Below are positions 16,816 to 48,032 of a stretch of DNA of 64,000 bases, one piece after another. Each line of letters starts with the position of its first letter. The first letter of the stretch is position 1. The position numbers and the translations under genes are program-made. The DNA is from Cannabis sativa (lineage: Eukaryota > Streptophyta > Magnoliopsida > Rosales > Cannabaceae): assembly GCF_029168945.1 (NCBI RefSeq), contig NC_083610.1, forward strand, positions 76,747,580-76,811,579, in the 5' to 3' direction. The notes under the pieces are model-generated. The model searched no databases. It was not told the origin of the DNA and was given only the letters and a program-made list of their open reading frames with translations.

Positions 16816-18354
16816 TTATTTGATAGGAAGGCTCCACACATTTTGATCCTTTAGGTATATAGAGTTTATCCACTTCACCCAAAGGCAATCTTGTTTTCTA
16901 GCAATGGCCCAAATGAACTTGGCCATCAAGGCTTTATACCACTTTTTACCCTCACGAAAGCCAACTCCCCCATACTTTTTAGGGAGACAAACCTTCTCCC
17001 ACGAAGCAAAGTACATCTTAGATCGGTTCCCAGAAGTTCCCCATAAGAATTCTCTACATCTCCTATCAATGGCTGCTATGACATGGCTAGGAAGAGTAAA
17101 AATACTCATCCAATAATTTCTAATGTCGAGGAGGACCGAGTGGATCAATTGAGCACGACCCACAAACAAGAGATTTCTGCTAGCCCAGCAGTTTAAGTTC
17201 TTGTTTATCTTGTCTAGAATCACTCCACAGTCTTCAGTCTTCCATTTAGTTGGACGAAGCTTGACCCCAAGGTATTTCAGAGGGAAGGAACCCTCTTCTA
17301 TTTTAACGAGGTCCAAGATCTGAGCTTTGATACCATCCTTTAGCCCACCAAAATAAATGTGGGATTTGGACTTATTAGCTGAGAGACCCGTAGCTTGGCA
17401 GAATCTCAAAAATGCCTCATGTAAGCAACTGACCGAGTTAAGATTCCCCTTGCAAAATATAATAAGATCATCTGCAAAACACATGTTAGTGAGCTTTAGA
17501 TGTTTGCATAAGGGGTGGAACCCAAACCCTTTTCTCCCAGAGTAATGGGCAAGCATTCTTGTAAGGTACTCCATGATAAGCACAAAGATGAGAGGGGACA
17601 TAGGATCTCCGTGCCGCAACCCCTTTTCACCTTTGAATTTACCCTGGATCCTTCCATTCATAAGAAGATTATAACTAGTTCCCTTTAAACAAGTCATAAT
17701 CCAACTGATGAATCTAGCAGGAAAACAAAGGTGTTTCAGAAGATCTTCTACAAACTGCCAGTCAAATGTGTCATAGGCCTTGCTCAAGTCAATCTTCATA
17801 ATGCATCTTACTGAAATGTTTTTCCTCGAATAACCCTTAAGGAGATCTTGGAAAATCATGATGTTGTGAGCAAGAAGCCTACTTTTCACAAAGGCCCCTT
17901 GGTTACTTTGGACAAGAGTAGGAAGCACCTCCGAGAGTCTAGAGCAAATTATCTTCGAGATGCATTTATATATAGTATTGCAGCAGGCAATGGGTCTATA
18001 ATCACTTGCAGATAAAGGATTCACTACCTTGGGGATTAGAGAGATCACTGTTTCATTTAGACTTTTCGGCAGTCTTCCATCTTGGAAGAAACCCAGAACA
18101 ACTGTTGATGTATCTTCACCAATTTCCTTCCAGAGATTTTTGAAAAAACCCGAGCCAAAACCATCCAATCTAGGACTCTTAGAGGAATGAAGACAATCTG
18201 TATTGATTCGGCAAGTCGCTGAACTTTTACTACCCATAAAGTGTTCAAAATGAGCTAAAAAGTGATGTCTCACCTTGTCAAAATCATCTTCAATAATATT
18301 ACCTTGAGAAAAGGTTGTTATTCTGTTCTCAAGCTTTCTTTTTCTCATAGCCAC
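16816..18354 (-). pseudogene. LINE ORF2: reverse transcriptase
   Basis: 512-codon frame with the non-LTR RT order: SDYRPIACCNTIYKCISKII, QGAFVKSRLLAHNIM, MKIDLSKAYDTFDWQF, GLRHGDPMSPLIFVLIMEYL, and the catalytic CFADDLIIF (FADD at about 17466-17477). Then follow the LKYLGVKLRPTKW thumb-type block and the KVCLPKKYGGVGFR block. All core RT motifs are intact, although the full polyprotein is split. Confidence 0.9.
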
Positions 18355-18528
18355 ATGGAAGTAACTAGAGTTTTCATCACAATACTTGACCTACGTAATC
18401 TTGCTCTGCTGTGTGACAAAGCTAGAATAATTTTTCTGCAAATGTTGAAGATGCTGCAATTGTTGGGAAGCTGCCTATTGGAGGCAAATATCAGTGGGAT
18501 TCTTGCTCGCTTCATCTTGAATTCTGCT

Positions 18529-19524
18529 TTATAAATCCTTGGCTTCTCTGTATTTCAATGTGATGTCACCCACTTCACTCTTATTGAACTGAATTAGATC
18601 CTGTCTAACCCGATAAAGCTTCTGCATGATACCATCCAAACCACTCCTAGCCATAGGACTTTCCCAAGCATTTAACACCCTTTGCTTGTAATTAGGATAA
18701 TCAACCCAATAGTTGCAAAATCTAAAGGGTTTGAAACCCACATTACTCTGCTCCTGGTTTCGGATTATGCAAAAACTATGATCCGAAACATTATCCCAAA
18801 TGAAAAAAGCATCTGCTATGGTAAAAATATCCAGCCACAATTTGTTAACAAACACCCGATCAAGCTTAGAGAAAATAAGGTCACCAACCTCATGCTTATT
18901 TGTCCAAGTGAAAAAGGATCCAGTACACTTGAATTCCTCAACTTGACCCATGGCGAGCCAATTTTGAGCATCTTCAATGTCCTTGGCTTGGATTTGTCTA
19001 CCCCCATTTCTATCTTCGTAAGAGAACATAGCATTAAAGTCACCTAAAATAACCCAAGGCAAGTTCGGGTGACCAATACTACTTAGCTTTGCCCACAAAT
19101 TCTTCCTTTTCTCCTTAGAATTACTTCCATACACAGCTGTGACAAGAAAAGTTTCCTTGTGCCCACAAACTTTGATTTTGCAATGGACTAGTTGAGCATC
19201 TTCATGAATTATTTCCACTTGAACAAATTTAGATTGCCAAAGAATTAAAATTCTACCCGAGATGGGATGGCTAGAATAAAACTCCCAATTAGGAATGTTA
19301 TTTTCAACTATCTCCTTAACTTTGTCATGTTTCACCTTTGTTTCAAACAAAGCTCCAAACCCCACTTTATTCAGCCTACATACATTGAGAATCACTTTTT
19401 TCTTTTCTCTCTTATTCATACCCCTCACATTCCAACCTAGCATATTACAAACTTCCATTAAAAGTAACGGAGATAGGAGGAGCCAAAGTCTCATCGTTAG
19501 TCTCTTGTAAGACTGCATAGCCAT
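18529..19524 (-). pseudogene. LINE ORF2 N-terminus: endonuclease
   Basis: 331-codon frame with the endonuclease/exonuclease/phosphatase fold. MLGWNVRGMNKREKK marks the start of the domain. FETKVKH carries the conserved Glu. WVILGDFNAMF carries the GDFN motif, and DNVSDHSFC carries the terminal SDH. These are the metal-binding and catalytic blocks that nick the target site. The likely start is inside the frame at the MLGWN methionine (near 19442). The frame ends shortly before the RT frame, so one or more breaks separate them (18354-18529). Confidence 0.85.
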
Positions 19525-19806
19525 TTTTTATTTTCTCTGTTACTCTTGTCTCAGCTACTGTAGCAACCTTTAGCCCTTTTTTCTTTGGAGTAATCCATTC
19601 ACTTACTTCAGCACCAGCCACCTTCAATGACCCCTGGTTTTTCCCTTTTTGCACCTGCTCATAAGCAAGTGTTTCTTCTACTGCCATATCAGTCCCTGCT
19701 TTGTCACTTACATCAGGTTGTATATCCTCACCAATAGGTTTAGCCAGTTCCTTGTTAGGAGCTGTTGTAACCTTCTTCTTCCAAGCCACCTTTTTATCTT
19801 TGTTGC

Positions 19807-20437
19807 AGTTCACCACTGTATGCCCTAGTAAATCACAAGCAGCACATTTCGTTGGAAGCTATTCATACTCCACCAATTGTTCCACCAACTGTTTCCTCTC
19901 ATTTACGAACGATATGGTCTTTGGAGGTTCATCAGAAATAACCATGTCCACAAGAACCCTAGCAAATTTTACCATTGATCTTTCCATAGTGACTTTGTCC
20001 ACCATTATCGGCTTACCAATCGTACTCACAAGCGCACTGAGGTTGTTCTTACCCCAGTATTGAAGCCCCAATCCGTTCAGCCGAATCCAAACTGGGACAG
20101 ATTGTATCATTCTAGCAGCATCCATATCGGTTGTCCAAGGTCGGAGAACCACAAGTTTTTTGTCAAAATGTATCATACCAGTTTCTAGGATTAAGTCTCG
20201 AGTTGCTTCATCCCTGAATTTCACTAGAGTGAACCCCGAGTTCATCCTAGCCACTTTCTCAATTCCAAGTTTCCCCCAAACCCTGTTTATGAACCCCTCA
20301 AACACCTTAAACGGTGGGTTTGCTCCCAACACTATGCAAACAATAGCATTCTTCCAATAAGAGGCTTCAACCTCTGCTTCCTCAATATCGATTTTAGCAA
20401 CTATTTGATCCCCCACTTTGATGGGTTCAGTAAACAC
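19807..20437 (-). pseudogene. LINE ORF1: DUF4283 and CCHC knuckle
   Basis: Residues from 20437 downward match the plant LINE DUF4283 region: an FEGFINRVWGKLGIEKVARM block, FTLVKFRDEATRDLIL, PVWIRLNGLGLQYWG and ISFVNERKQLVEQLVEYE. One stop codon follows at 19859. Directly after it a retroviral-type knuckle CAACDLLGHTVVNC (CX2CX4HX4C) appears at about 19848-19807. The frame then continues through a lysine/threonine-rich linker to 19445. ORF1 proteins bind nucleic acid in the LINE RNP. Confidence 0.8.
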
Positions 20438-20459
20438 AAGTTTAGTTGAAGGAGTAAGT

Positions 20460-21845
20460 ACTTGTAGAAAGTTATACTTGTAGAAAGTTATAACATGTTA
20501 TAATAATTTTATAATAACCTCTCTTAAAATAATTAAAATGTCACGAGTTCAATACTTTAGAAGTAATATTTTTTTTTCTTTACTTATATTTAATTTAAAA
20601 TTTCAATTAATTTAATAATTTTGAAACTCTATCATATCATATTAATTAATTCTTTTTACATATATTTGAATTCAATTTAATCTCCATAATAACTCAAATC
20701 CAATCCAATCTACAAAAGTACATATTGAATCAGTTATTTTAGATTAGTTACTTTTTAATATTGAATTACTTAAAAATTTTAATTCTTTTTCACATAACTA
20801 ACAACAAAATAAATAAATTGTTGTTGGTTTATGTCTCTGTTATAACCATATTTTGAGCAATAATATAGTGTTGACACGTGTAAGAAAAACCAGCTCGTGT
20901 TATAAAGCAATTAATGTATTCAATAAACTCGCCTTAAGAAATGCATGTGGTAGAAATATTCAAACTCACATTTTAAAAGATAAGGGCGAGCTATGAATAA
21001 TAACTACCGATTGATAAAATTTGTAAAATGAAAGATCAACTTATAGAAGGTTCATCTCGAGAAATACAAAATACACAACAGAATAAAATGCCTGGAAAGG
21101 GTAGATAATGAATTATTTACGAAACTTGCAGCTCATTGACTCATATACTCGCGAGTATTGCTAAGAGACTAAGGGTCACATTCCTAGCATGATTCATCTC
21201 AAAATTATCATATTGTGATGGTGTCTTGCATTTGCTTCGGCTAACACTTATGGAAGGACGCGGGAAGTATTACTTAAAGTATATTTAGGCTCTGAAAATT
21301 GTCTTCAAAATAAAGTATCTTGAGAAGATTATTTGTGTTATAAAATTTCAAAAAAAAATTGTATAAGAATTTTTCCATAATAAAAAATTCAATTAATATA
21401 CTATCATATAAATTTAAAATAGTTTAATTAATTAAAATCAATTTCAAAATTGAAAAGAACATTATAAAAATTGAATTTTGTGGGATCCTGAACTAATAGT
21501 GGATTTGGATTGAGCATGTCATCGTCGTGGTTGTGGAAACTAAAGAAACAACTGTCCCGCTGAATCATTTACTTTATCAAAATATATATATTGGTGAAGT
21601 ATATATCGATCCTTTAATATAATAAGCATCCTATAAGCTTCTCTATCAGGTTGTTGTCTCCCTATCGACTAAACGATAACTCGCCCTTAAAGGAAATACC
21701 CCTCTATACAATCTTAATGTGCCGACGAGATACAATCTTATAATAACCTATCTTGCTACATGTTACAATTTTGATTGCACGTCATACAGGTCAAAATTTG
21801 GGATAACAATTATATTGTGCAATTGTTGATCTTAAAATATAAGAG
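20460..21845. other. AT-rich intergenic, no supported gene
   Basis: No open frame or RNA gene. A less AT-rich piece (20860-21310, 21480-21800) with CTCGCC-type words might be an LTR relic, but I could not pair it with another copy. Confidence 0.35.
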
Positions 21846-39156: not shown

Positions 39157-39290
39157 GGGAAATTTTAATTTTTGGCCTTAATAATACAAGCCATATCAAA
39201 ATTTATACCCTTCCTTAATTTGTACAAATTTAGTCCATTAATTACATGAACTTCCCATTTTACCCTTTTTTTTAAAAAATAAAAAATAAA
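39157..39290 (+). repeat. Left terminal inverted repeat of the inner MULE
   Basis: GGGAAATTTTAAT...; shares CCTTAATAATAC, ATCAAAATTTATACCCT, TAATTTGTACAAATT with the right end in complement. Similarity is partial, roughly 70-75% by eye. Confidence 0.75.
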
Positions 39291-39521
39291 ATAGCTAAAA
39301 TCTGAAATTGATCTTTCTCTCTCTCTTCCCTCTTCCCTCTCTCTCGTGCACCACTCTCTCTCTCTAGAAAAAAACTGAAAAATTTATCAAAAAAATTCCC
39401 TCTATCCGTCCCACTCTCTCGTCACTCTCTTTCTTCCCTCTTGAATGGTTGTTTTCTCGGTGGGTGTTGGTGGAAAACCGAAGCACAACTCAATATCACT
39501 CAAGAATCTTACAGCATTATA

Positions 39522-39525
39522 ATGG
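39522..39525 (+). CDS. Predicted first exon of MURA transposase (start codon)
   Basis: ATGG is followed directly by a strong donor GTAAGT (39526). Joining it to the acceptor TTTGCAATTGCAG at 41052 gives ATG GGA GAC AAA, in frame with the transposase N-terminus (MGDKVFLVVSYDGVW). The 1527-base intron would hold two site arrays and the antisense small gene. The alternative start at 41007 encodes an unlikely hydrophobic leader (MFFPLLTLFFWF). Confidence 0.5.
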
Positions 39526-39674
39526 GTAAGTTGTATTTTAAGCATTTTGTTTGACTTTATGTAGTTTAAAATTGTTATATGTGTGTTTTTTGTTGGAACT
39601 GCTGTTTTTTGGTCTGAAATTGTTGAGATCTGGCAGATCTGGTTTTCAGTCGAATTCTGGGTTTTCCAGTGTTA

Positions 39675-39918
39675 TCGATGATATATCGATACTATGTCGA
39701 TGGTTTGTCGATGATTACAAAAGGAAAGGTCAGTGACGACCATTATCGACGTTATGTCGACATAATGTCAACGTTATGTCGACATTATGCAACAAACATA
39801 TTGTTTCCAATTTGTCGACATTTTGTCGACGTTATGTCGACAGCATGTCGACAACAAGCATTTATCTCATTTTAGAAGTTGTCGATATTTTGTCGACACC
39901 ATGTCGACAAAATATCGA
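39675..39918. promoter_or_regulatory. GTCGAC array 1: four tetrads with 11 bp period
   Basis: TCGA cores start at 39675, 39686, 39697, 39708; 39746, 39757, 39768 (TCAA), 39779; 39815, 39826, 39837, 39848; 39882, 39893, 39904, 39915. Within each tetrad the step is exactly 11; between tetrads the gap is 38, 36 and 34. Unit consensus is ATGTCGACATT with palindromic core TGTCGACA. It lies downstream of the left terminus in the predicted transposase intron. Confidence 0.9.
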
Positions 39919-40104
39919 TGCAAATGAAAAAAAGCCGTAAATAACATAACATAACATTAAAATAACATAAAATAAAAGGGAAATTTCATTAAAATAAGAA
40001 AAAAAACATAACATAAAAAAACATTAAAAAAAACATAAAATAAAGTTCATAAAAAAAAAAAACAAACATTAAATAAAACTCACCACAAGCCATAACATAA
40101 CAAA

Positions 40105-40434
40105 TTATTTTTTTTTAAATTCTTTGGCTTGTGGGTGAGCCTTGCAATACTTGCATAATGTTCCAGGCTTCACCGGTTTACCGTTAAAGATGCCTAGTTT
40201 GCAACGACGGCATCCTTCGGGGAACCCTGGTGGTGGAGCCGGCCATACACCAGTTTTGCAAAAATGTGCTTCAAGTTTCCTGAACCTGAACTCGTTCCCA
40301 CATCGTTCTCTTTCGAAAGCTCTTTGGGCGTCAAAAACTTTCTGCATTTCAGGAGTAACTATGCCAACATCAGGCTCCTTGACTCTTCGGGGAGTTAAGA
40401 TGGGGAATTTGCCTTTGTTCTTTCTTGGGGCCAT
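40105..40434 (-). CDS. Small basic zinc-ribbon-like protein encoded in the MULE (109 aa)
   Basis: Starts MAPRKNKGKFPILTPRR and ends KYCKAHPQAKEFKKK. The C-terminal half has C-x2-C-x15-C-x2-C (GCRRCKLGIF...GTLCKYCKAH), a likely zinc-binding ribbon. A further Cys and a charged central helix-like region (ERERCGNEFRFRKLEAHFCK) precede it. Lysine-rich at both ends, so probably nuclear and nucleic-acid binding. It lies on the minus strand between the first two GTCGAC arrays, inside the predicted first transposase intron. It has its own TATA box ~85 bases upstream of the ATG. The frame is intact, in contrast to decayed surroundings. I do not recognise the family. Confidence 0.65.
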   Translation of the reverse strand: MAPRKNKGKFPILTPRRVKEPDVGIVTPEMQKVFDAQRAFERERCGNEFRFRKLEAHFCKTGVWPAPPPGFPEGCRRCKLGIFNGKPVKPGTLCKYCKAHPQAKEFKKK

Positions 40435-40518
40435 ATTTAGAACTTAAGAATAAGAGAAATTTTTAAGAGTAAGAGAGAAGTAGAAGACAAGAGCACTTAT
40501 GAATAAGAAAGGGATTTG

Positions 40519-40526
40519 CTTTTATA
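40519..40526 (-). promoter_or_regulatory. TATA box of the small MULE gene
   Basis: TATAAAAG on the minus strand (CTTTTATA on plus), 85-92 bases upstream of the ATG at 40434. The expected start would be near 40493, leaving a CT-rich ~60 base leader. The second GTCGAC array begins ~90 bases further upstream (40615). Confidence 0.6.
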
Positions 40527-40614
40527 GAGCAGTAAACATGTTGGGAATGTATGAAAATTTAATGGTCATTAAATGCGTAACTGTACAGGTAAAACGCATG
40601 AAATGGTGTATTTG

Positions 40615-40990
40615 TCGACTGAATGTCGATACTATGTCGACATCATGTCGACAACATGCCAATTTAGTGTCACTGCTAACTCATTTGTCGATGCCATGTC
40701 GACGTCATGTCGGCTTGACTTGTCGATAGGACACGTGTCTGACATGCAACGTGTCAGTTGGGAAGGGTTGTTGGGAACGTAGGTAAAATTTATTAACATT
40801 AAATGTGTAACCGTTGTTAATTGTCGATTGAATGTCGATGGTATGTCGATATTATGTCGATGGCGAGCATGCTTGGTGTGGTTGTCGACGTTATGTCGAT
40901 AGTATGTCGACACAATGTCGACAATCAGTGCCCTTATTTCTGCTGTTGTGATTATCGACATTATGTCTATTGATATCGATGGGATGTCGA
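40615..40990. promoter_or_regulatory. GTCGAC array 2: five tetrads
   Basis: Cores start at 40615, 40626, 40637, 40648; 40688, 40699, 40710 (TCGG), 40723; 40824, 40835, 40846, 40857; 40885, 40896, 40907, 40918; 40955, 40966 (TCTA), 40976, 40987. Nearly all steps are 11. The array sits between the small minus-strand gene and the transposase coding exon, so it could control both. Confidence 0.9.
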
Positions 40991-41052
40991 TTTTTATTTT
41001 TTTTGGGTGTTTTTTCCTTTACTCACCTTGTTTTTTTGGTTTGCAATTGCAG

Positions 41053-43641
41053 GAGACAAAGTGTTCCTTGTTGTATCGTACGATGGTGTTTGGTTATGTG
41101 AGAATTATAATTGGATCTACAAAGCAAATAGCAGCTTGACGTTGACAGTTACAAATGAGACAACCCTACAAGAACTGCGACAAATTTTATATGAAGAGTT
41201 GGAAGTTGATCCGGTAGCGTATGATTTAAAGTTGGAGATTTGTTCCTTGTACATGAAGGGAAAAATGGTTGCGCCAGAGGTTATTAAGAGAGAACGCCAA
41301 CTGAGAACGTTTTTAGAGATGAGGGCAACAATGTCAAATACAGAGTTTATGCCATTATTCGTGACCAAGGTGAGAAAAGTTGGGAATTCGGAGCCTACGC
41401 CGCCTACTAATCCTCTCCCTCGGAGTGTGGTAGGGTCTTGCGTTCCCAAAACAGATGTTGGGATTGGTGTGAATGAGGAGGTTCCGGCCAATTTAGAGGT
41501 TCCGACCAATTTAGAGGTTCCGACCAATGTAGGGCAAGAACAAGAAGCGACAGGATTTCATCAGTTTGAAGAGTTCGATACACCCTTCTACAATAACGAT
41601 CCTATTGTAGATTTGAATATGGACGATGAACATGATTTAGCAGTCGATGAAGCCGTAGCGGGACCATTGTTGAGGTTAGAGTGTGTACCGAGTAACCAAG
41701 GTACACAGCGAGAACGACAACCTCGTAGTGAAAATCGCACTACACCTGGAACTAGCGATAGTCGACCGGGCGGGCGAAGAACATGCTCGTCATGCAACGT
41801 TCTCAACGTTCTCCTCTTTTGAAGTTTGTACCAAGTTCAAAGCTCCCATGTGGACAAAGGAAGATATAATGGAAAATCATGAGCTAACTACTTGTTTACA
41901 AAGTAAGGAAGCAGGGGTGATAGAGCTTGGTAATTTTTATGAAAACAAGGAAGAACTGAGACAAGTAGTGGCTAGGTTTGCACTTAATAACAATTTCGAG
42001 TGGATGGTGAAGAAGTCATCCCCTGATGTGTTGTACGTTACATGCAAGGCTCCAGATTGTAAATGGAGATTGAGGGGGAGGAAGAAGATGCATTCTGACA
42101 ACTTTGAGGTCACTGTATTTCACAATGAACACACATGTAACTTGAATGCGAGACGTTCAGATCACCGTCAAGCAGCACCATGGGTAGTTGGCCACCTTAT
42201 TAAGGGGAAGTACACCCAAGATGGAACTAAGTACAAGGCTAAAGACATACAGAGGGACATGTTTGACAACTACGGTATCAGTATGAGTTATGTGAAGGCG
42301 TGGAGGTGCAGGGAGATGGGACTTACGTATGCTAGGGGTACGCCACGAGTTTTCATACATGAAGCTTCCCGGGTACTTGTACATGCCGGAACGAAGAATC
42401 CGGTACCATTACCTGACTTGTACTTAGAGGACGAGCGGTTCAAGTACTGTTTTATATCACTCGGTGCATGTAGAAGGGGCTTTTCTTTTTGTCGTCCTGT
42501 TTTGAGTATCGATGGCACCTTCTTGAAGACGAAGTACGGCGGTATAATGTTAGTTGCTGTGGCATACGATGCGAACAACCAATTGTTGCCGGTTGCTTAT
42601 GGTATCGTTGACAGTGAGAATAACGACTCCTGGACGTATTTCTTACAGAAGTTGAGGGTAGCAGTTGGCGTGGTTGAGAACTTAGTGTTTGTGTCAGATA
42701 GGCATCAAAGCATTGATCATGCTGTTAAACTCGTTTTTCCCGAAGCAGTCCACTGTGCATGCTATCACCACATTGTTATGAACGTGAACGCCAAATTCAA
42801 GACTGATGCTTTTCACAACCAAATATATAATGTTGCTTACGCATGGTCGAAGACTGAATGCGATAGAGAGTTCGAGAAGCTTAGAAAGATGAATCCGGCC
42901 ATTGCTGCATATGTGGAGAGTATAGGGTTTGAGAAGTGGGCTCACCCTTATTGTTTGGGCGATAGATACAACATCATGACGAGCAACGCTGCTGAAAGCT
43001 TCAATAGTGTCACAGAAGAGTTCAGGAAATATCCAATAACTACTTTGGTTGAATTTATCAGGTTCACACTCCAATCGTGGTTCGCTGATCGCCTCGAAAA
43101 TGCTGACAAATGTGCCACCCCTTTGGCCACGCTCTTTGAAAAAAACTTGGCAAAAATTCATGAAAATGCAAGGTACAGGCGCGTCCAACGAAATGGAGCC
43201 AATTTGTATAACGTTGGTAGGGGACCTAACGGTGAAAGAGGTGGTGATGTGAATCTAGTTGAAAGAACATGCACCTGCGGCGTGTTCACGTTATTGAAAC
43301 TCCCTTGCCTTCATGCATGTGCCGCGGCATTGAAAACGAACACAAGTGTGTACACGCTTTGCTCACCTTATTATTCAAAAGAAACGTGGAGGAAGATTTA
43401 CGATGATACCATCAATCTTGCTGGTGACGAGGATGATTGGGTTCTCCCAGAACACATCAAGAATATGAAAGTTGGGGTACCTGTGGAAAAGAAGCCTGTA
43501 GGTCGTCCAAGAAAAAGCAACGCTGGAAGAAGACGGGAGAACCGTTTCCCGTCTGGTGATAAAAAGGTTCTCGTACCACGAAACTGCAGCCGCTGTGGCA
43601 GTTCAGGCCACAACAGAGCAACATGCAAAGCCCGCATCTGA
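41053..43641 (+). CDS. MURA-type MULE transposase, one frame break
   Basis: The N-terminal part (41053-41822) has a VVSYDGVWLCENYNW block, an acidic linker and three copies of a six-residue VPTNLE-type repeat (41479-41535). The main part (open from 41683, numbering from there) has an N-terminal Mu DNA-binding domain and the DDE core: D277 in SIDGTFLK, D339 in VSDRHQSIDH, E438 in TSNAAESFNS. It ends with a SWIM finger C530-x-C532-x9-C542-x-H544 and a C-terminal CCHC knuckle CSRCGSSGHNRATC. All catalytic residues are present. The two frames differ by one base and meet near a TTTT run at 41817-41820, where the first frame hits a stop at 41820. It cuts and inserts the element by DDE chemistry in the nucleus. 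Confidence 0.9.
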
Positions 43642-43904
43642 GGCGTCTTGTACGTATTCGTTGGGAAATTTGATATATTGTAATGATGCATATTTTGTCA
43701 TACTTATTTTTGTTGAGGTTGAATATTTTTCAAATATTTTAATTATTTTTAGGTTTAATAGTTATTTTTGTTGAATAATATTGATATTTTATATTTGAAA
43801 CCACGAATAATTATCAAAATTTGAACGAAAAGAAAATCTATATATACATAACTGTAATGTTAATTACACAAAATATACAATGTCCCAATAATTACACATA
43901 TAAT

Positions 43905-46748
43905 CAGCCGACATTTTGGTAAAATAAATCAACACACCACCGTTGACGAAACATAGCTATCCGGTCTGGCGTCACATCGGTCAATCCACGCTGCATCATG
44001 AGATGCTCCACATACTCAATGCAATAGACGCCACAATCACCACTAAATGCAAAATAAAATGTAAAGTCAGTCTAACGTAAAACATATTTTAATACTATAG
44101 TACTTTTTTATCGCTATGTACCTGGTTGCTGACTTCGGAACTAAGTCGTGAGTGGCTCGAGTCGAGTGCATTTTTGGAAGCACCGTGATGTCACAGTTAG
44201 CTAACGCCATGATCTGGTTGTTATGTGGAAATTCCCCGGTTGCAAGGATTAGCGAGGGCAGCAGTTCTGCCCAAACCTTCAGGATGGGTTCCAAGGCGGT
44301 CCAATGACAGACGCTGGAATCACAGTCGTAGACATTAATTTTCCACAGCTCTATGTCGACTTCAACTGTGACCCAGTGCCTTGCCTCGGGAAGGTTCAGA
44401 ACGAAGTAAATAAACTCGTTACCCCTCCATCTCTCAAAGACTTGGGACTGTAATTACAGAGAACAACGAAACAATTAACAAACCATAATAATCTTCCCAA
44501 ACAATTAACATTTAAAATCTTACTAAAACAATACCTTATGAACCCCTCTGCAGTAGTCCAGGATATAATCCTCCCACACAAAGTTTTTCCTCGGACCCTT
44601 GTGGCTCGTCCATGCACTGCTGATCATGGCGGTCACGAATGTGGAGAGAATGACACCCTTCTGAGGAAATGTCAGTGGATAGTCGGTGCGTCGCCTCCTC
44701 AGCATATGCATTGCTGCATCTATATGCTGCATATAAAGGGAAATGTCAGTTAGACATAAAAATATATTAATTGCACATAAAGTTGTAAAGTGAAGTAATA
44801 TACTTTACTTACGTCATCTGTAAGCCATTCCTTTGGTGTGAGCATTGTCCAAAAGAATCCTGGACCGTAATCACCACTTCTCAAATCCCGAAGTCGGTGG
44901 TTCGGAATGAGTCCAACACACCACTTTCGGAAAGTGGTTAACAATTTCTCATCCGGTGGCTCCAGGGGATCAAAATTCGAAGATGGCCTATGTCTCCTCT
45001 TCATCTTCGTATAGTCACCGAACCATACAGGAGGCTTTCTCTTCCTCTTCCGACTCTTAACCACTGCAGGTTGTGCCTCTATCGACAGAATCTCACCCTG
45101 CGACTCGGTGTCATGTACATGGATAAGAGGTTGTGCCTCGATCGGAGTCGCTGGAGCTCCCTCATAAGGATCGTAATCGTCGGGGAAGACCTCATCCTCT
45201 TCTACTGGGGGTGAAGCAGCTGGTGGTGGGGTAGATGGATCTGCTGGGGCCTCCGGTGCTGAAGCTGTCATTGGCGGACGATTCAACATGACCAATATGT
45301 CTCTGAGCTGCTCCATAATTACGTTCTGACCACCCTTCAGCTCTACATGGCTGGTCTCGTATGCCTTCTTCAGCTCGACATGAGCAGCATACAGACCCTG
45401 AGTGTCAGCCTCGATCCTATCCAACCTCGCCACTAAATCAGTGTACTCGGCACCCCGAACGCCTGATGAAGATGGTGCACTGGGCTGAGGTTCTGAACCA
45501 GTGGCCTGAAAAAATATATATAAAAAAAATACGGTAAGCATACGATAATTCCACAATGTAACAAATATCACAAAACAAAAACAATAAAAAATAAAGACAT
45601 AAAAAAAAAGTTCCAAAATTGGTACCTGAGTGTCTGTTTCCTGAGTCTCTGGTACCTGACTACCTGCCTCAGCCTCTGTGTCATCCACAACATCATCAAC
45701 CAGGTTCTCCACACCATCGTAAGATATGGTCCTCACAAATGCCTCCTCCTCTGTCCGTGGAAGTAGCCCCTTCACAACTTCAAGATTCTGTTTATGGTTC
45801 AAAAAATATCAAAATAAAACCATTTAGCATTTATTACAAGCATTTATGTTAAATAATTATTCTGAACATAAGTGAAAATCATACCCGTCTAGAAAATAAT
45901 GCGCTGACGTCTTTCTTCCCAATATCGCCTTTGCTCGTCCAGCTAAGCATCCTGGGGAACCGAATCCCGTGGTTCGTGCCATACCTCTTCCCAACCTCCA
46001 AAATGGCCTCGTACGCCCAATATTGTACCGCAGTGCGAAGCCATATGCCGTGTATTTGCACTCGTGCTGAACATCCGAACTCAGCTTCTTCTCGTAGTTG
46101 GCCTTCTGTTTCAACATGTCTTTCTGAAGCGAGTGCATGAGTCTGGCGAATGAGTGCTTCCCCCAAGGAATCCGGAAGAAGAACTCGAGGTCTTCCACAT
46201 ATCTAAGTATGTGAGGCGTAATCAGCGTGTTTGCCTCGCGGCCCAGAAGCACTGACTCCACAAACAAGCACAAGCCGAGCTTGTACAAGTCTTCCGGGTT
46301 CTGACAGTTTGTGAACTGAAGTTGGAGTGCTTCTGTCTTCACACTATCAGACCGGTTGAAATATCTGTTGATCAATCGTTCTGACCCCGAGCGCGCGACC
46401 TGCGCAGCCTTCTCCTCTTCTGTTGGCCCCGAGGAGAAGTCCAGGCCTGTAATGAGTGCAAACTCCAGCACCCCGAATCTGACCTCCTTCCAACCAACAT
46501 AAAACCGCATCCTCAACTCCTCCTGAGCATCCACTTTCATTTTGTGGAGCATCAGCTGGTGAAATAACACCGAGGAGAATGTCAAGGGTACGGCATTCCA
46601 GAAGCTCCCGAAACGGCTTTCCTTCGCCGTGTTATTAAGGTTGAACTCCTCAAACCGAGCTTTGATTTTTGCAAAAATTCCAGTGCCTCTATATGTGACG
46701 CGGCCAAGAAATGCTCGGTGTCTTTGGAATAATGAGTCTGGGAGCCAT
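43905..46748 (-). CDS. DUF1985 / Ulp1-like (C48) cysteine protease gene of the MULE, multi-exon, one frame break
   Basis: Predicted exons (minus strand, GT-AG borders): 46748-45885, 45787-45626, 45505-44813, 44726-44535, 44447-44122, 44042-43905 (stop TGA at 43905-43907). All downstream junctions keep frame (phase 0 except AG/T before the last exon). Exon 1 carries DUF1985 (SFWNAVPLTFSSVLFHQLML, LRMRFYVGWKEVRFGVLEFA). The middle is acidic/proline-rich with a KSRKRKRKPP basic patch, a possible nuclear signal. The C-terminus has the ULP catalytic triad: H at 44376 (EARHWVTVEVD), D at 44325 (VYDCD) and C at 44033 (SGDCGVYC). In DUF1985 a one-base shift near 46030 breaks the frame between the YTAYGFAL block and the VQYWAYEAILEVGKRY block. 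Members of this family cleave SUMO-like tags; the role in transposition is unknown. Confidence 0.8.
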
Positions 46749-47521
46749 CTGAAAAAACAAAAAACAAATCAATATAACTGCCAAAAAAATTAAAAAATGG
46801 TCGACATAACATCGACATCATGTCGATATTCTGTCGACATTATCAAACAGTAAGTAAACAGAAAATTTGGTCGACAAACAGTCGATATACTGTCGACATG
46901 TTGTCGACATTATCACAAAAACAGTAACAAAATAACTTTGTGGACAGCATATCGACAAACTGTCGACATCCTGTCGACATGTTGTCGACATTATCACAAA
47001 AACAGTAACAAAATAACTTTGTGGACAGCATATCGACAATCTGTCGACATCCTTATCGACAATCTGTCGACATCCTGTCGACATACAAATATATTTGCTG
47101 AAAACAACAATCGTCGACATAAGGTCGACATCATGTCGACATGCCATCGACATTATCAAACATATATCAACTACATAACAATGGTCGACAAGATATCGAC
47201 ATAAGGTCGATATGCTATCGACATTATAGACCTCCACTTTTATTCCAAAAAAGGTCGACATCCTATCGACATACCAATGATATCCTATCGACATACACTA
47301 ACAACACAGACTCAAACACTTTCAATCTTGTCGACATTATATCGATAACCTATCGATATGTCATCGACAACTTGTTTGAACAATAAAACACTACTGATTA
47401 ACATGCAGAAAAACAAGCACAAGTTCGTATACACATCCTAAAACAATCTAATCAGAATAACATACACAAATTCCCATCCAAATCTATGAAAATTCTATTT
47501 TTTAATAAGAAAAAAACTTAC
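46749..47521 (-). other. Predicted first intron of the protease gene
   Basis: Donor CAAAG/GTAAGT at 47521 and acceptor TTTTTTCAG at 46749 bracket the third GTCGAC array. The upstream exon (47522 to about 47640) is open in the joined frame (ACC AAA ACC ... AGT CAA AGA TGG) but I see no ATG in it. Translation start is therefore uncertain. Confidence 0.5.
46801..47367. promoter_or_regulatory. GTCGAC array 3: eight blocks, 37 bp gaps
   Basis: Cores: 46801, 46812, 46823, 46834; 46871, 46882, 46893, 46904; 46941 (TGGA), 46952, 46963, 46974, 46985; 47022 (TGGA), 47033, 47044, 47056, 47067, 47078; 47114, 47125, 47136, 47147; 47185, 47196, 47207, 47218; 47255, 47266, a decayed site near 47277, 47288; 47331, 47342, 47353, 47364. 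Gaps between blocks are 37, 37, 37, 36, 38, 37 and 43. It lies in the predicted first intron of the protease gene. Confidence 0.92.
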
Positions 47522-47904
47522 CTTTGACTGTTCGTGGTTTTGGGGGCTACGACCTCTGTTCTGGTTTTGGTGGCTACGACCTCTGAAAATTTGTTGGGTT
47601 CCAATGTCGGCCGTGGGTGTGGGTGGGTTGGGTTCCAATGTCGAGAGCAATAGACAGAGAAAGAGAGAAAGAGAGAACGAGAACAGTAGATAGAGAGAGG
47701 GTTGGGTCAGGGTCGTGGGTGGGTGGCCGGAGTGGGGTCGTGGTCGTGGACTGCGTTGTTGGGTCGTTGGGTCGTCGTCGTGGGGCAGCGTTCGAAAGTT
47801 GTAAACGACAGAGAGAGAAAGAGAGAGGGAAAGAGAGGGAATAGCAAACGACAGAGAGAGAAAGAGAGAGTGAAAGAGGGAAAGACGGAAAGAGAGAGAG
47901 AGAA

Positions 47905-48032
47905 TAGGAAAATTAAATTTGAGGGGTATTTTGGGTAGAAATGAGTAATAGTGGAATTAATTTGTATAAATTAGTGGAGGGTATATATTTTGAAATGAGG
48001 TATTTTATTAGGGTCAATTAATGAAATTTCCC
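47905..48032 (-). repeat. Right terminal inverted repeat of the inner MULE
   Basis: Minus-strand reading GGGAAATTTCATTAATTGAC, then TTTCAAAATATATACCCTCC and AATTTATACAAATT, mirroring the left end. A GA-rich stretch (47640-47905) lies internal to it, as CT-rich sequence lies internal to the left repeat. Confidence 0.75.

Follow-up and report, generated by a model that had tools for sequence, protein, structure and literature searches.

We have analysed a stretch of 64,000 nucleotides of Cannabis sativa (contig NC_083610.1, positions 76,747,580 to 76,811,579 of the forward strand), called the window below, in which a first-pass annotation had described regularly spaced TCGA sites within a Mutator-like element (MULE). 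All coordinates are positions within this window. The element (39157-48032, given without a strand) carries a transposase gene and, running towards it, a gene with DUF1985 and Ulp1 (Peptidase_C48) domains. It also contains three zones in which a short oriented word, WTRTCGAY, is repeated at a helical spacing in groups, mostly of four. These arrays are real, orderly and functional-looking.

The element and its genes

The ends of the element are marked by terminal inverted repeats, which start GGGAAATTT and are identical in 81 of 111 aligned columns (73%), and by an 8-bp target duplication, TAAGTATA, present on both sides. The terminal alignment has a score of 48, compared with a maximum of 29 among 300 shuffled terminal alignments. 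A MULE transposase, terminal repeats and an 8-bp target duplication, the features by which a MULE is recognised, are all present (target duplications of MULEs range from about 8 to 11 bp).

The coding region of the transposase (41053-43641, plus strand) shows matches to MULE, Transposase_mut, DBD_Tnp_Mut and SWIM in the frame at 41680-43641. It is read as two overlapping frames (41680-41822), which may reflect a splice or short intron, or a frameshift. Its predicted intron 1 (39526-41052, plus strand; ATGG/GTAAGT ... TTGCAG/GAGAC) is proposed from the splice consensus and because the next exon has no ATG close to its beginning. Nested in this predicted intron, in antisense, is a gene for a small Cys-rich protein of 109 amino acids with the pattern CxxC...CxxC (40108-40434, minus strand).

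The DUF1985/Ulp1 gene (43905-46748, minus strand) was identified by Pfam and by homology, and is of the VANC/KIU type. Its predicted intron 1 (46749-47521, minus strand; AAG/GTAAG ... CAG/ATGGCTCCC) corresponds to a junction in a relative's protein: the Cannabis protein model P0003 reads ...AQSK/MAPRLIIP across it.

Two further features lie in the window. An 18-bp tandem repeat (3.1 copies, 41478-41532) in the N-terminal exon of the transposase gives rise to repeated EVPTNL-like peptides. At some distance from the element are the remains of a retrotransposon of the long interspersed nuclear element (LINE) type (16819-20497, minus strand), in which frames for a reverse transcriptase (RVT_1), an endonuclease (Exo_endo_phos) and DUF4283 follow one another.

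Phased arrays in three zones

TCGA positions were listed and autocorrelated, with 200 dinucleotide-preserving shuffles of each region as a control. The element contains 86 TCGA, which form 43 pairs at 11 bp, 27 at 22 bp, 14 at 33 bp and 14 at 70 bp, the peaks that the first-pass annotation had led us to expect. Twelve perfect tetrads at 11 bp are present. The 200 shuffles of the element had on average 0.12 pairs at 11 bp and never more than 1, with no tetrad. Clearly, the 11-bp phasing stands far above that of shuffled sequence.

In the remainder of the window (55,123 bases) we found 105 TCGA, a single pair at 11 bp and no tetrad, and a blastn search of the element against the rest of the 64-kb window (E 1e-3) gave no match. 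A satellite spread through the window is thereby ruled out. The exact tetrad pattern also had no match among viral contigs, a result of little weight, since that collection contains no plant genomes.

Zone 1 (39675-39918, plus strand) includes 4 groups with 15 intact WTRTCGAY sites and one decayed slot, and zone 2 (40615-40990, plus strand) 5 groups with 18 intact sites and two decayed slots. Both lie in predicted intron 1 of the transposase gene, zone 2 upstream of the nested antisense gene. Zone 3 (46801-47367, minus strand), in predicted intron 1 of the DUF1985/Ulp1 gene, includes 8 groups with 32 intact sites and one decayed slot, in addition to two weak extra slots. The three zones thus hold 17 groups and 65 intact cores, and all are predicted to lie outside coding sequence, as had been noted previously, each being within a predicted intron.

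The 69 slots were placed by hand around TCGA cores, so that the match to the core is by construction while that at the other four positions is not. Compared with WTRTCGAY, 65 slots match at 8 of 8 positions, three at 7 and one at 6; the decayed slots are at 39768, 40710, 40966 and 47277. In this layout 15 of the 17 groups have four slots, some of them decayed or 1-2 bp off step. Two groups with extra units had been reported earlier and are indeed present, both in zone 3: the group at 46952 consists of four slots plus a weak fifth, and the group at 47033 of five plus a weak sixth. The original description of 17 groups of four cores at exactly 11 bp therefore holds for the number of groups and for the 12 perfect tetrads, but not every group is perfect, and spacings of 10, 12 and 13 bp also occur within groups. 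Slots immediately outside the groups are close to background (mean 3.03 of 8 for 34 slots, against 2.87 at 20,000 random places in the element). Only three of the 34 score at least 6: the degenerate slots that precede groups 46952 and 47033, and one that follows the zone-2 group at 40615.

Gaps between groups, measured within zones from the last slot of one group to the first of the next (n = 14), are 36-38 bp in nine cases, five of these being 37 bp; the others are 28, 34, 40, 43 and 101 bp. A spacing of mostly 37 bp, as first proposed, is therefore correct in outline, but the series given for zone 3 (37, 37, 37, 36, 38, 37 and 43) holds only if the degenerate slots 46941 and 47022 are taken as group starts. 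Between intact cores only, two of the seven zone-3 gaps are 48 bp. As 37 bp corresponds to about 3.5 turns, neighbouring tetrads would sit on roughly opposite faces of the helix.

Zone 3 also includes a recent tandem duplication of 81 bp, so that its groups are not all independent. We compared 13 of the 14 linkers, leaving aside that of the 101-bp gap. Mean linker identity within zone 1, within zone 2 (3 pairs each) and across zones differs from that of single shuffled pairs by no more than one standard deviation, most values being slightly higher than for the shuffles. In zone 3 it is 0.52 compared with 0.43 for shuffles, a value that includes two identical linkers from the 81-bp duplication.

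An oriented word with a central CpG

All 65 intact cores match WTRTCGAY once zone 3 is read on the minus strand. The two orientation sets (33 and 32 sites) are similar, with only A or T at -3, T at -2, a purine at -1 and a pyrimidine after TCGA. The T at -2 is invariant, on the plus strand in zones 1 and 2 and on the minus strand in zone 3. The motif had been presented as a palindrome, and this we have to reject: every one of the 65 cores has T at -2, but only 39 have A at the mirror position, +5 (Fisher 1.3e-9). Because the mirror positions are not kept, the site is an oriented 8-bp word; 22 of the 65 cores are equal to TGTCGACA. Its direction is the sense of the surrounding gene.

The word is almost confined to the zones, which contain 43 of the 44 plus-strand matches and all 43 minus-strand matches in the element. 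The single match outside lies in the DUF1985/Ulp1 gene block; the transposase block, the small gene and the outermost 110 bases at each end have none. As a separate observation, the first slot of each group in zones 1 and 2 has T at -3 (9 of 9), compared with A in 20 of the 24 later intact slots.

The ratio of observed to expected CpG is 2.07, 1.61 and 1.75 in zones 1 to 3 and 0.90 over the whole element. It is 0.85 in the main transposase frame and 0.77 in the DUF1985/Ulp1 gene block (introns included), and in the window it is 0.49 to the left of the element and 0.63 to the right. Motif cores account for 65 of the 78 CpGs in the zones. The zone ratios are no separate proof, because the array itself raises them. 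The kept CpG suggests either selection or an unmethylated state, and both would fit a bound region protected from silencing.

These observations bear on a simpler explanation, that the arrays are a drifting 11-bp minisatellite with no binder. The units are head-to-tail, the 81-bp duplication shows slippage or unequal exchange, and the zone-3 linkers are still alike. Such drift, however, does not readily account for eight word positions that are constant in every intact core next to variable spacer bases, a pattern of kept spacing and changing sequence that the first-pass annotation had recognised. The number of units is also not free, with four slots in most groups and flanking slots at background, and the word recurs at places apart from one another, its direction changing with that of the host gene. 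In addition, CpG is kept, although in methylated plant transposons this dinucleotide is usually lost quickly. We consider a minisatellite of this kind very improbable.

The DUF1985/Ulp1 protein and its relatives

The DUF1985 domain was recognised by Pfam (PF09331, 1.4e-19), as was the Ulp1 domain (PF02902), with 5.5e-14 for the joined exons of the window and 3.4e-9 for the relative P0008. Homologues of the DUF1985 frame at E <= 0.001 number 13, including 11 of Cannabis sativa and 1 of Humulus lupulus; the first three are 79-85% identical. At E <= 1 the only PDB match of this frame is VANC21 (9lnj, 9lnk). As a single sequence it matches chain 9lnj_A over VANC21 residues 85-238 with E 5.3e-7, and a 7-sequence profile gives E 6.9e-10 over residues 97-241. 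The DUF1985/Ulp1 protein is thus, as judged by sequence, a homologue of Arabidopsis VANC21. A structure model of the DUF1985 relative P0002 was too poor for use (mean predicted local distance difference test score, pLDDT, of 36).

The element is classed as a VANC-carrying MULE. We keep it apart from VANDAL because of its 111-column terminal repeats at 73% identity, VANDAL being described in part of PMC13317346 as a MULE without terminal inverted repeats.

Relatives were examined for the array by back-translation of their proteins. As the intron is usually missing from a protein, this is a weak test. Near its start, beside the DUF1985 segment, the Cannabis model P0008 could have been encoded by DNA with the word at 37, 48, 59, 69 and 80 nucleotides and then at 115 and 126, that is, in steps of 11, 11, 10 and 11 nucleotides, a gap of 35 and a further step of 11. 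For its first 45 residues, none of 5000 shuffles reached its count of pairs at 10-12 nucleotides. The first-pass annotation had regarded relatives without any phased motif as a point against its proposal; P0008, one homologue in 13, speaks weakly against such a lack, and the others show no run.

Candidate binders

The first-pass annotation had named three possible binders, the transposase, the DUF1985/Ulp1 protein and the small Cys-rich protein, and had drawn an analogy with the VANDAL elements of Arabidopsis. Our results favour the DUF1985/Ulp1 protein as the putative binder, because it is a homologue of VANC21 and because the arrays are placed as VANC21 motifs are. The latter form tandem repeats in the introns of VANC21 and VANB21 and upstream of VANA21, according to the relevant passages of PMC5735166. 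The comparison with VANDAL is in this respect more than an analogy, with both a homologous protein and arrays in predicted introns.

The zones could alternatively be subterminal arrays bound by the MULE transposase (or by its DBD_Tnp_Mut and SWIM parts), which would join the two ends through the words. Subterminal repeats work in this way in Spm/En and Ac. The layout offers some support: the sites on either side face the interior of the element, those of zones 1 and 2 as seen from the left end and those of zone 3 as seen from the right, and the zones reach no further than about 1.84 kb from the left end and 1.24 kb from the right. The distance to the nearest site, however, is ~515 bp at the left end and ~665 bp at the right, the terminal 110 bases have none, and zones 1 and 2 are parted by a 697-bp stretch that contains the small gene. 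As the same element also encodes a VANC homologue, a type of binder already documented to use arrays of this sort, this role for the transposase appears unlikely.

A third possibility is that the small Cys-rich protein is both word binder and regulator, with the DUF1985 protein as its partner. Its gene is nested between zones 1 and 2, it has four homologues (three of Cannabis sativa), and CxxC...CxxC is kept in all five aligned sequences. Neither its frame nor the homologue P0014 has a Pfam match, though, a search of PDB gave no match below E 0.5, and its structure model is poor (mean pLDDT 56). We know of no precedent for a small Cys-rich protein as a regulator of this type, and rate the proposal as improbable. 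It may be mentioned separately that in the model P0001 a piece of this protein is fused behind the DUF1985/Ulp1 part.

A proposed anti-silencing platform

Gene content, array position and protein homology together argue for the same system as VANC. The arrays are probably the target platform of the VANC/KIU-type anti-silencing protein (DUF1985/Ulp1) encoded by this MULE family. In the proposed mechanism, one protein unit would occupy each WTRTCGAY word. With four words facing one way in steps of 11 bp, the four bound units would come to lie on almost the same side of the helix and would bind cooperatively, while the ~37-bp spacer would set one complex apart from the next. Occupation of the 5' introns of both genes, whose positions are predicted, would remove or block silencing marks around the element's own promoters, and the promoters so freed would allow expression of the transposase and VANC genes. 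The remaining genome would be spared, as it would presumably be without the dense word. We infer the binding, its stoichiometry and the demethylation.

The predominance of fours might further reflect a VANC/Ulp1 tetramer, or a pair of dimers, on four sites, with the central CpG read or protected, which would make the array a methylation-coupled anti-silencing switch. We put this forward as a rather doubtful extension. The published VANC21 and VANC6 words, as given in passages of PMC5735166, contain no CG.

Several results weigh against the platform. The models P0001, P0002 and P0008 do not show predicted intron 1 of the DUF1985/Ulp1 gene as an intron: each begins on its side of the junction and continues across. 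Compared with Cannabis relatives, the DUF1985 exon of the element shifts frame twice; intact copies exist, and the element would therefore be served in trans. Within the limits of the back-translation test, P0008 is the only one of the 13 homologues with at least three compatible sites in a run; P0001 has one 11-nucleotide pair, and the other 11 have none, three of them having one at 12. The direction of the sites is also inward from both ends, so that this reading and that of transposase binding are inseparable in one element. The Arabidopsis VANC words YAGTATTAY and AGTTGTMC have no occurrence on either strand of the element, which would be expected if words diverge but offers no positive link. 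Finally, the translated zone-3 array, compared with the protein database, identified no protein (0 of 93 candidates).

If the platform proposal is true, a single piece of DNA in the hemp family, instead of Arabidopsis, would contain a motif-directed anti-silencing system, with both the protein gene and its target. The exact word, spacing and group size can be obtained as oligonucleotides and tested beside a homologue of solved structure, and the central CpG allows one to ask whether methylation, the mark such proteins act against, is also sensed by them. With its eight bases and constant layout, the word might also serve to direct the removal of silencing to chosen sites.

Comparison with known systems

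The closest parallel is VANC21 of VANDAL21. In Arabidopsis, proteins of the VANC type remove silencing marks from such elements. Passages of PMC5735166 report binding of VANC21 to YAGTATTAY, in vivo and in vitro, within the non-coding parts of VANDAL21, and a DUF1985 domain in VANC proteins; non-coding parts are also those hit by RNA-directed methylation (PMC10398659, in part). In both elements a DUF1985 protein of a MULE, homologous between the two, is accompanied by a short motif that recurs in introns, predicted ones in the Cannabis element, and elsewhere outside coding sequence. The Cannabis element differs in its word, WTRTCGAY with a CpG instead of YAGTATTAY, in its Ulp1 domain and in its recognisable terminal inverted repeats. 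Its array is in tetrads at 11 bp, while those passages that concern VANC21 sites are silent on grouping. Meeting reports (portions of PMC8756742 and PMC12859917) mention unpublished VANC structures and, later, one with target DNA.

VANC6, whose targets are AGTTGTCC or AGTTGTAC (passages of PMC5735166), offers a second parallel, with a motif class in tandem repeats in non-coding parts of VANDAL6, but neither VANC6 word is present in the Cannabis element. The Cannabis word would accordingly represent a different specificity, and is by its sequence not a VANC21 or VANC6 target. Elements of the KIU type are similar in another way: part of PMC13317346, which summarises Sasaki et al. 2022 (EMBO J), describes VANC genes with a Ulp1 domain (KIU) that recognise motifs in non-coding parts of KIU elements. 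The present element differs in being from Cannabis. In a partial literature collection we found no paper that joins Cannabis with VANC.

More distantly related is Spm, which belongs to another superfamily. Its TnpA binds repeated short sites of its own element, as we propose here for a transposon protein, and counters methylation; those sites are subterminal. TnpA has been named among the transposable element proteins with demethylation activity (PMC10706983).

Regarding the VANC family as a whole, the abstract of Sasaki and colleagues from 2022 is said to attribute motif specificity to sequence, density and helical periodicity, and VANC genes have reportedly gained and lost DUF1985, DUF287 and Ulp1 in the same account. 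If the former is right, helical phasing has been described before. Systems of this kind are in any case known, and what the Cannabis element adds to them is the word, its CpG, the same-sense orientation of the sites and the predominance of fours.

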